Position numbers and translations under genes: made by a program
Shown: positions 49,968-52,261 of the stretch, in pieces
Layout: each line of letters starts with the position of its first letter
Position numbering within the stretch: position 1 is the stretch's first letter
DNA from: Candidatus Pacearchaeota archaeon
Lineage (GTDB): Archaea; Nanobdellota; Nanobdellia; Pacearchaeales; GW2011-AR1
NCBI GenBank assembly: GCA_017609285.1
Contig: JAFCEE010000001.1
Location: 82,475-137,591 of the forward strand
Direction of reading: 5' to 3'
DNA: 55,117 nt
Notes under the pieces: model-generated
Told to the model about the DNA's origin: nothing
Databases searched by the model: none
What the model saw: only the letters and a program-made list of their open reading frames with translations

Positions 49968-50065
49968 CGCCCCTGCCAGGATTCGAACCTGGGACACCCA
50001 GCTTTCTTCTTAGATAGGAGGTTCACCATTATTCTGGTGCTCTATCCAGACTGAGCTACAGGGGC
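49968..50065 (-). tRNA. Interrupted tRNA gene, class I arms with about 23 extra nt in the anticodon region; isotype unresolved (Arg suspected)
   Basis: 7-bp acceptor GCCCCTG/CAGGGGC, D arm GCTC-AGTCTGGATA-GAGC, T arm CCAGG-TTCGAAT-CCTGG, G73, anticodon half-stems CCAG/CTGG separated by 32 nt; TATA (TTTTATAA) centred 27 bp upstream. Confidence 0.8.
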
Positions 50066-50623: not shown

Positions 50624-50707
50624 TGCGAGGGCTAGGATTCGAACCTAGGAACCCACTAAGGGACGGGATCTTGAGTCCCGCGCGTTTGACCACTTCGCTA
50701 CCCTCGC
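50624..50707 (-). tRNA. tRNA-Leu(CAA), class II
   Basis: GCGAGGG TA GCGAAGTGGTCAAACGC G CGGGA CTCAAGA TCCCG TCCCTTAGTGGGT TCCTAGGTTCGAATCCTAG CCCTCGC; anticodon CAA; long variable arm. Confidence 0.93.
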
Positions 50708-51450
50708 TTATATAATTTATATGGGTTAAGCTTATTTTTAAGTATATCTTTTCTTTGTTTTATCTTTGTATTTGGAGGGCAAAAACCAAATCTTTTCCAT
50801 ATTAAATATTTTGTATTATGTTTTGGATTTGATGGTTTAAGCTCTTGAAACCATCTATGTATGCTATTAATCTCATTTATTTCTAAGATGTGGATATCAC
50901 TACGATTTCTATGACAACTAAACCCTCCTTTTAACATTCTTTTTACACACCTAAAATCATATTTTTTACATAAACTGAAAATTTGCTCTATTAATTTTTG
51001 GGATATACTACAGATCCTTATTCTGATTTTTGAATGATAGTTAGAATTAAAGATGTTAGCATATCTAGTATAATCTTTTTGACAGAATACACAACCATCT
51101 GTATCAAAAATTCCTCGAAGAAACGAAAAAACTATCTGTTTATCTGAGTTGAGTATCCAATCTGGCACAAATGCTGATTTTACTTTTCTCCCTTTAGCTA
51201 AACCAAGACTTAATAATCTTTTGATTACATTTTTTTTATATACTGAAATTCCATATACTCGCCAATATCTGAAATTCTTAGGTTTTATATTGATTTTTAA
51301 GACTTCATTTATTAAATCTGTAAGATGCTTATCATAATAATCTTTATCTTCTTCTGGATCACCAACAATAAAAAAACCTTTCTCCCTTTCCTCTATCCAA
51401 CCATCCCCCATAATGGCTCCACATAATTCTGCTTCTTTAATCCCACCCAT
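50698..51450 (-). CDS. LAGLIDADG homing endonuclease
   Basis: Two LAGLIDADG-type motifs, ELCGAIMGDGWI and FLRGIFDTDGCV; stop codon lies inside tRNA-Leu. Confidence 0.9.
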   Translation of the reverse strand: MGGIKEAELCGAIMGDGWIEEREKGFFIVGDPEEDKDYYDKHLTDLINEVLKINIKPKNFRYWRVYGISVYKKNVIKRLLSLGLAKGRKVKSAFVPDWILNSDKQIVFSFLRGIFDTDGCVFCQKDYTRYANIFNSNYHSKIRIRICSISQKLIEQIFSLCKKYDFRCVKRMLKGGFSCHRNRSDIHILEINEINSIHRWFQELKPSNPKHNTKYLIWKRFGFCPPNTKIKQRKDILKNKLNPYKLYKRG

Positions 51451-51463
51451 TTTAAAATTGGGT
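51445..51463. repeat. Near-perfect palindrome over the homing endonuclease start codon
   Basis: ACCCATTTTAAAATTGGGT; the ATG (minus strand 51450-51448) lies in the left arm. Confidence 0.7.
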
Positions 51464-51539
51464 TTTCCTCATTTAAAAGGTTATCTACGAAGAATTTGTT
51501 ACTCTGGCACTCCCGTCAACTAAAAAAAAGAAAAAGAGG

Positions 51540-51617: not shown

Positions 51618-51682
51618 GGCAGTACAAGTCAGCGTACAGTAGACACCGAAGTGTCGTCCTGTAAAAACTGATTACTCCTGCC
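51618..51682 (-). ncRNA. Unassigned 65-nt structured small RNA
   Basis: Terminal stem GGCAG/CTGCC, inner stems TCAG/CTGA, TACAG/CTGTA, GACAC/GTGTC capped by C(UUCG)G; U6 tract after the 3' end; TATA (TTTAAATA) centred 27 bp upstream of the first G. Confidence 0.7.
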
Positions 51683-51705
51683 TTAAGGGAGTAAGATCAT
51701 TGATA

Positions 51706-51713
51706 TATTTAAA
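51706..51713 (-). promoter_or_regulatory. TATA box of the 65-nt RNA
   Basis: TTTAAATA on minus strand, centre 51709.5. Confidence 0.65.
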
Positions 51714-51837
51714 TCTTTTGATAATATTTGTTGCATAAAGACACTGACAGAATTTAAATTACTTATATTAACTTAAATTACAAAATTTCTAAATAAATTA
51801 TTATGTAACTATAAAGAAGAATAAATAAAGTGTAAAG

Positions 51838-51949
51838 AAGACAGCTTTATGCCTTCCCTTCCTCTCGGAAAGTACAGACATAAACGTAGCCAGCTTAACT
51901 TCTGTGTTCGGAATGGAAACAGGTGTTTCCTGACTACTATGGCTGTCTT
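51838..51949 (-). rRNA. 5S ribosomal RNA (stand-alone)
   Basis: agacagcc...aacacctgtttccattccgaacacagaagttaagctggc...agctgtct with closing helix I; conserved loop A/B/C text. Confidence 0.95.
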
Positions 51950-51971
51950 CATAAGAGCTGAGAAAAGAGGA

Positions 51972-51979
51972 TTTTTAAA
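51972..51979. promoter_or_regulatory. Shared palindromic TATA element between 5S rRNA and rnp4
   Basis: tttTTTAAAg; centre 27 bp from the 5S 5' end and about 25 bp from the rnp4 ATG. Confidence 0.65.
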
Positions 51980-52000
51980 GTTTATTATGCTCATTCTGAA

Positions 52001-52261
52001 ATGGCAAAGAAAAGGCTAAGCAAAAAAGAAGCAGAAGAAAAAATAGAAAAGTTTTTTTCTGATATAAAAAACAAAACTCCAGAAGAGGTAAGGAAAATTA
52101 AAAGGTTAGCTATGCATTATAATATTAAATTAGGCAAGTTTAGGAAGAAATTTTGTAAATACTGCTTTTCTCCGAAATTAAGAGTTGTAAGTATAAAAAA
52201 TGGTATTAAGAGAGTGAGATGTGAAAGCTGCGGGAGAATAAGTAGATGGAAAATTAGTTAG
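52001..52261 (+). CDS. rnp4: RNase P protein component Rpp21/Rpr2 family (Rnp4)
   Basis: KIKRLAMHYNIKLGKFRKKFCKYCFSPKLRVVSIKNGIKRVRCESCGRISRWKI: basic helix plus Zn ribbon. Confidence 0.9.
   Translation: MAKKRLSKKEAEEKIEKFFSDIKNKTPEEVRKIKRLAMHYNIKLGKFRKKFCKYCFSPKLRVVSIKNGIKRVRCESCGRISRWKIS

Follow-up and report, generated by a model that had tools for sequence, protein, structure and literature searches.

The window, meaning the whole 55,117-nt stretch of DNA analysed here, encodes a stand-alone structured RNA on its minus strand at 51686-51618 (Table 1). Its sequence and coordinates, the TATA box located 25 nt upstream, the stems, the UUCG tetraloop and the U6 tail all match the description given in the original prediction, which had been made from this DNA. 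The 75-nt transcript folds with a free energy of -28.4 kcal/mol and a z-score of -4.4, and none of 200 shuffled sequences folded equally well; for the full 96 nt of 51618-51713 the z-score is -2.6.

Table 1. Features of the RNA locus and its neighbours, in window positions
Feature	Position	Strand	Basis
TATA box TTTAAATA of the RNA gene	51706..51713	-	Sequence; similar spacing in 24/25 homologs
Structured RNA (UUAAGGCAG...CUGCC)	51618..51686	-	Fold z = -4.4; covariation among homologs
Outer helix h, 5′ strand GGCAG (partner 51618-51622)	51678..51682	-	100% paired, 5/5 pairs doubly changed
Central helix H of the bulge-helix-bulge (BHB), 5′ strand GAGU (partner 51626-51629)	51674..51677	-	94.1% paired, 4/4 pairs doubly changed
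5′ bulge AAU	51671..51673	-	AAU in 16/17 rows of A3
Inner helix h′, 5′ strand CAGU (partner 51630-51633)	51667..51670	-	100% paired and covariation
Inner stem, 5′ strand UACAG (partner CUGUA 51635-51639)	51659..51663	-	Fold; conserved in part
UUCG-capped hairpin GACAC-UUCG-GUGUC	51642..51655	-	100% paired and covariation
Inner helix h′, 3′ strand GCUG	51630..51633	-	Alignment pairing
BHB central helix H, 3′ strand ACUU	51626..51629	-	Alignment pairing
3′ bulge GUA	51623..51625	-	3 nt unpaired in RNAalifold consensus
Outer helix h, 3′ strand CUGCC	51618..51622	-	Alignment pairing
U6 tract, probable terminator in this genome	51612..51617	-	Sequence; T4 run in 14/25 homologs only
Predicted excised, possibly circularised 48-nt product	51624..51671	-	Computed from the BHB; inference
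5S rRNA, conserved neighbour	51836..51950	-	Rfam; adjoins most type A homologs
tRNA-Leu(CAA), conserved neighbour downstream; an inserted ORF displaces it here	50624..50707	-	Rfam and ARAGORN; 35-103 nt downstream in 11 homologs

Promoter, 3′ end and genomic neighbourhood

The locus is an RNA gene with a conserved promoter. A TATA-like box (at least 7/8) is found at -22 to -35 upstream of 24 of the 25 homologs, compared to 12 of 25 at the mirrored position, and is mostly placed at -22 to -32 in homologs of type A and at -32 to -35 in those of type B, the two types into which the family divides. The original prediction of an own promoter is thereby upheld, whereas the U6 terminator that was predicted along with it is weaker evidence, since T4 runs occur at the 3′ end of just 14 of the 25 homologs (9 of 25 when mirrored).

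In the window, Rfam 15 detects the 5S rRNA and three tRNAs and nothing at the RNA locus; among the tRNAs is an interrupted one at 49968-50065 (-), which was missed by ARAGORN. Type A genes are usually located between 5S rRNA and tRNA-Leu, with a co-directional tRNA-Leu 35-103 nt downstream in 11 homologs, and several relatives without the RNA have an empty site, in which 5S is immediately next to tRNA-Leu, at a distance of 39-73 nt. The co-directional arrangement would agree with the RNA being derived by processing from the leader or a spacer of the tRNA-Leu transcript instead of an independent gene. This is made very improbable by the TATA-like boxes near -30 before the RNA and, in several genomes, before tRNA-Leu as well, by the ORF that separates RNA and tRNA in the window, and by the type B genes, which lie beside a diphthamide-synthesis-like gene (in several genomes also an IF-2 gene) and have no tRNA next to them. 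On the other side of the RNA, a small zinc-ribbon-like ORF at 51962-52258 (+) adjoins the 5S gene and is, by eye, conserved near most type A loci; it resembles the RNase P subunit Rpp21/Rpr2, with a Pfam match of only E = 0.12.

Conservation and distribution of the RNA family

A DNA-only search of 92 relatives recovered the window itself and four convincing homologs from other genera and one other family, the matches in other genera having E-values of 5e-19 to 9e-8. The DNA matches L006 (G016) and L007 (G042) cover just the AT-rich promoter region of the query and are not RNA homologs. Covariance searches of relatives, suggested in the original prediction, were performed with three models built in turn from alignments A1, A3 and A6 and yielded about 27 copies of the RNA, distributed over about 25 of the 200 genomes searched in the same order, mostly with E-values of 1e-20 to 1e-7 and with type A usually beside the 5S rRNA. 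An RNA on the reverse strand was rejected, as antisense matches score far below sense matches. Outside the order, no convincing match was obtained in a class sample of 378 genomes or a phylum sample of 371 genomes; one class-level match (L042, in another family) appears to be due to chance. A pattern search of genome contigs, made with an incorrect spacing, had a single hit, L008, in a Chromatiales MAG. When 40 genomes, of which 39 had been picked for having no match, were searched with greater sensitivity, nothing convincing was added, so the presence of the RNA is patchy.

One copy per genome is the rule. Two copies in tandem are found in G013 and G041, and G122 has one of each type (L023, L077), indicating that types A and B are paralogs. 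The tandem copies (L043/L044 in G013, about 84 nt apart start to start, and L076 in G041) belong to type B and are possibly transcribed from one promoter. The distribution appears to be fitted best by independent conserved loci that are inherited vertically with loss. A mobile element was rejected because each genome has one or two copies, which occupy orthologous sites, and because phage records contain no match; a pattern search of viral contigs gave no match either.

When 17 homologs are aligned, standard pairs fill 92.8% of the pair cells, and 17 of the 20 pairs have changed on both sides, a result equalled by 0 of 500 shuffles, with slid versions reaching at most 42%. The values for 21 aligned homologs are 95.3% and 22 of 26 pairs. 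Compensatory changes in conserved stems had been proposed as support for a new family, and these alignments provide it. Furthermore, no Rfam 15 family matches the RNA at threshold, the only match at E<=10 being a chance one to the fluoride riboswitch on the opposite strand, and no family is consistently matched at E<=10 across 20 homologs. The small RNA gene is real, belongs to tiny archaea and had not been catalogued before, and the original designation as an unassigned stand-alone structured RNA is borne out by stems that covary strongly in about 25 genomes.

At the outset the RNA was not recognised as tRNA, C/D, canonical H/ACA, SRP or RNase P RNA, which agrees with the Rfam and motif tests. 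The RNA has no match to the tRNA model, and the C box (RUGAUGA) of C/D box RNAs is absent from the window RNA. Neither the SRP nor the RNase P model of Rfam matches, and both RNAs are encoded by separate genes, SRP in 7 and RNase P in 8 of the 10 carriers tested. The length of about 65 nt, the hairpin with an internal loop and the tandem copies in some genomes are reminiscent of an atypical H/ACA guide, with the internal loop as pseudouridylation pocket. Such a guide is extremely unlikely, as no ACA/ANA box follows the stem in the window or in the homologs, whose 3′ ends are U-rich, and as the upper stem contains no K-turn: no tandem G-A/A-G lies by a 3-nt bulge, and GA pairs with UC. In addition, the loop strands pair with each other and vary between families, and Rfam gives no match. 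The conserved loop was likewise rejected as a K-turn or L7Ae site for the absence of tandem GA, and binding of the anti-Shine-Dalgarno sequence through GGAG was rejected because GGAG is not conserved in family f4.

The basal element of the RNA

The archaeal BHB motif consists by definition of two 3-nt bulges around a 4-bp helix and is used by the endonuclease EndA, with subsequent circularisation (PMC7714728, PMC4090602, PMC4731332). Helix H of pre-tRNAs contains the first two nucleotides of the anticodon, and the bulge with the splice site comes after them (PMC4090602). The basal "internal loop" of the original prediction is best read as such a BHB; the stems drawn there stand, whereas the internal loops as drawn miss the conserved BHB arrangement. 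In the conserved loop GAGUAA/CUUGUN, columns 12-15 of A3 pair with columns 100-103, leaving AAU on the 5′ side and three nucleotides on the 3′ side unpaired. The layout h-H-bulge-h′/h′-H-bulge-h fits all 17 aligned homologs, with the flanking helices h and h′ being 100% paired in A3. For helix H, the 94.1% standard pairs and double changes at 4/4 positions compare with at most 56% pairing in slid controls, and its covariation score of 0.76 with at most 0.22 when slid. As the helix precedes the bulge in the 5′ to 3′ direction on each strand, as it does in pre-tRNAs, the handedness is right. A BHB at the base of the RNA, with the same handedness as archaeal pre-tRNA splice sites, is thus supported at the level of aligned sequences.

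Compensatory variants of H include GAGU/ACUU, GGAU/AUCC, GAAU/AUUC and GGGG/ACCU. All four pairs are present in 13 of the 17 homologs and three of four in the rest; the innermost pair is G-A in 4 of 17, and U18 is an equally good partner for its column, which would shorten H to 3 bp. RNAalifold, with the alignment as its only input, returns two opposed 3-nt bulges around a 3-bp H with U18 paired. The double changes in H represent a modest number of independent events, mainly in family f4, G014, f8 and C-G pairs. Distant members also fit the BHB (G062 with GGGC/GCCU, G055 with AAGC/GCUU and G023 with GAGC/GCUC). In the most divergent member (L039, family f8), helix GGGC/GCCU is accompanied by bulges AAA and AUA, and the minimum free energy (MFE) fold is exactly the 4-bp BHB. 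In G064, the BHB of the alignment is GAGT/ACTC. Type B contains an extra nucleotide in H that departs from the strict 4-bp/3-nt layout and is at best a relaxed BHB. Chance look-alikes of a single BHB are frequent in AT-rich DNA (34 in the window vs 12-19 in shuffles), and for this reason it is the alignment that carries the case. With the settings used, no BHB was found within 300 nt in the 16S flanks of five carriers, and simple settings found no canonical BHB in the three interrupted tRNAs, including the one in the window; theirs look relaxed.

The basal element might instead be an internal loop for another RNA-binding protein, within a Y-RNA-like or ribosomal-protein-like RNP. For the 17 homologs, the nearest-neighbour model (ViennaRNA) gives an open loop that is 0-9.5 kcal/mol more favourable than a 4-bp BHB imposed on the sequence, which would agree with this explanation. 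Y RNAs have a conserved basal stem, a variable interior and a U tail, a plan common to both. However, the two strands covary as a BHB helix and not as an opposed loop, the directly opposed pairing being 53.9% paired with zero covariation, and no TROVE/Ro60 protein was detected in the 33 genomes tested (25 of them carriers), with a positive control in Deinobacterium. A mimic of the ribosomal protein S8 site was rejected: the AAUC/GACU core resembles the S8 site of the same 16S, but the bulged UA and the extra G of helix 21, as compared by eye with the 16S of relatives, are missing. A search of 16S loci (R3) gave no significant match. Overall, an element of this kind is considered unlikely. The alternative fold by which an upstream TTACTCC would pair with the internal GGAGTAA does not generalise, as the listed homologs lack such a pairing upstream.

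Predicted processing and relation to known BHB substrates

EndA cuts the bulges of BHB substrates, and the action of a ligase then yields joined exons and a circular interior (PMC7714728, PMC4731332). By analogy, EndA would cut each bulge of the RNA between the second and third nucleotide, at 51672|51671 and 51624|51623, thereby releasing the 48-nt interior with its UUCG hairpin. A ligase such as RtcB could then close the released interior into a circle, so that the mature product would be a small, circular, nuclease-resistant structured RNA; the circles predicted for type A homologs range from about 36 to 87 nt. The splicing machinery is likely functional in these organisms, as intron-containing tRNAs are present in the window (49968-50065) and in relatives (L009, L014). 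Moreover, a 46-nt BHB circle derives from a Haloferax 5′ UTR (PMC7714728), indicating that EndA accepts short non-tRNA substrates. An RNA with a BHB core and an interior that is excised by EndA, possibly followed by ligation to a small circle, is therefore the reading that we hold to be somewhat likelier true than false. On this analogy, the RNA is probably cut out by the cell, and closure into a small circular RNA may follow.

Alternatively, EndA might bind the BHB without productive processing, in which case the RNA would be a decoy or sensor that sets the level of free splicing endonuclease, and the interior would be a spacer. The better conservation of the BHB core and AAU bulge relative to the interior, which comprises one to three hairpins, would be in line with this, as would the patchy presence and dispensability of the RNA. 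Against it, the inner hairpin CAG-NNN-GRCAC-UUCG-GUGYC-NN-CUG, including a small internal loop, recurs in families f1, f4, f5 and f8, favouring a functional interior. We know of no precedent for an EndA-decoy RNA, and such a role appears quite improbable. Returning to excision of the interior, the fuller reading is that of a hitherto undescribed gene family dedicated to making small circular RNAs. Each gene would combine its promoter with a minimal hBHBh′ cassette, out of which the tRNA machinery splices a hairpin as payload. The family, with its two paralogs and occasional tandem copies, would be an ancient one within a single order of tiny archaea and would have been lost repeatedly. The chances that this complete scenario holds are about even.

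Very few BHB substrates are known that are neither tRNA nor rRNA; before the HVO_1309 5′ UTR of Haloferax volcanii, only the cbf5 mRNA intron had been reported (PMC7714728). The HVO_1309 mini-intron likewise has a short (46 nt), BHB-bounded interior unrelated to tRNA or rRNA; EndA cleaves it in vitro, and its circular form occurs in vivo (PMC7714728). It resides in an mRNA leader, whereas the BHB described here forms the core of an RNA gene that stands alone, has a promoter of its own and is conserved across families of one order. The crenarchaeal cbf5 mRNA intron (PMC2738675) is also a non-tRNA BHB substrate, but interrupts a protein gene. With archaeal pre-tRNA introns and pre-rRNA processing stems (hBHBh′) the element shares the 4-bp helix, the two 3-nt bulges, the flanking helices and the handedness; unlike in these, a tRNA or rRNA body is absent and the exon parts would be short flanks only. 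The permuted SRP RNA of Thermoproteus (PMC4731332) is a free-standing non-coding RNA matured by tRNA splicing via a leader/trailer BHB and circularised through it, but is a large known RNA, while SRP RNA is a separate gene in 7 of the 10 carriers tested. No stand-alone BHB small-RNA gene family was found in Rfam or the open-access literature searched; the motif is known, whereas within the scope of these searches the novelty lies in the gene family and in its setting. If the reading is true, these reduced archaea also use their tRNA splicing system to produce dedicated RNAs that are small and possibly circular. The compact natural cassette allows precise prediction of cut sites and junction, and pairs of relatives with and without the gene offer a route to the function of the RNA.

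The ORF between the RNA and tRNA-Leu, at 50701-51468 (-), is LAGLIDADG-like (PF14528, E = 4e-5), and its insertion at this position is seen in the window alone among the loci inspected. Archaeal BHB introns can harbour LAGLIDADG genes, so a mobile origin of this ORF is worth a look. At locus L017, another LAGLIDADG ORF lies on the other side of the 5S gene.
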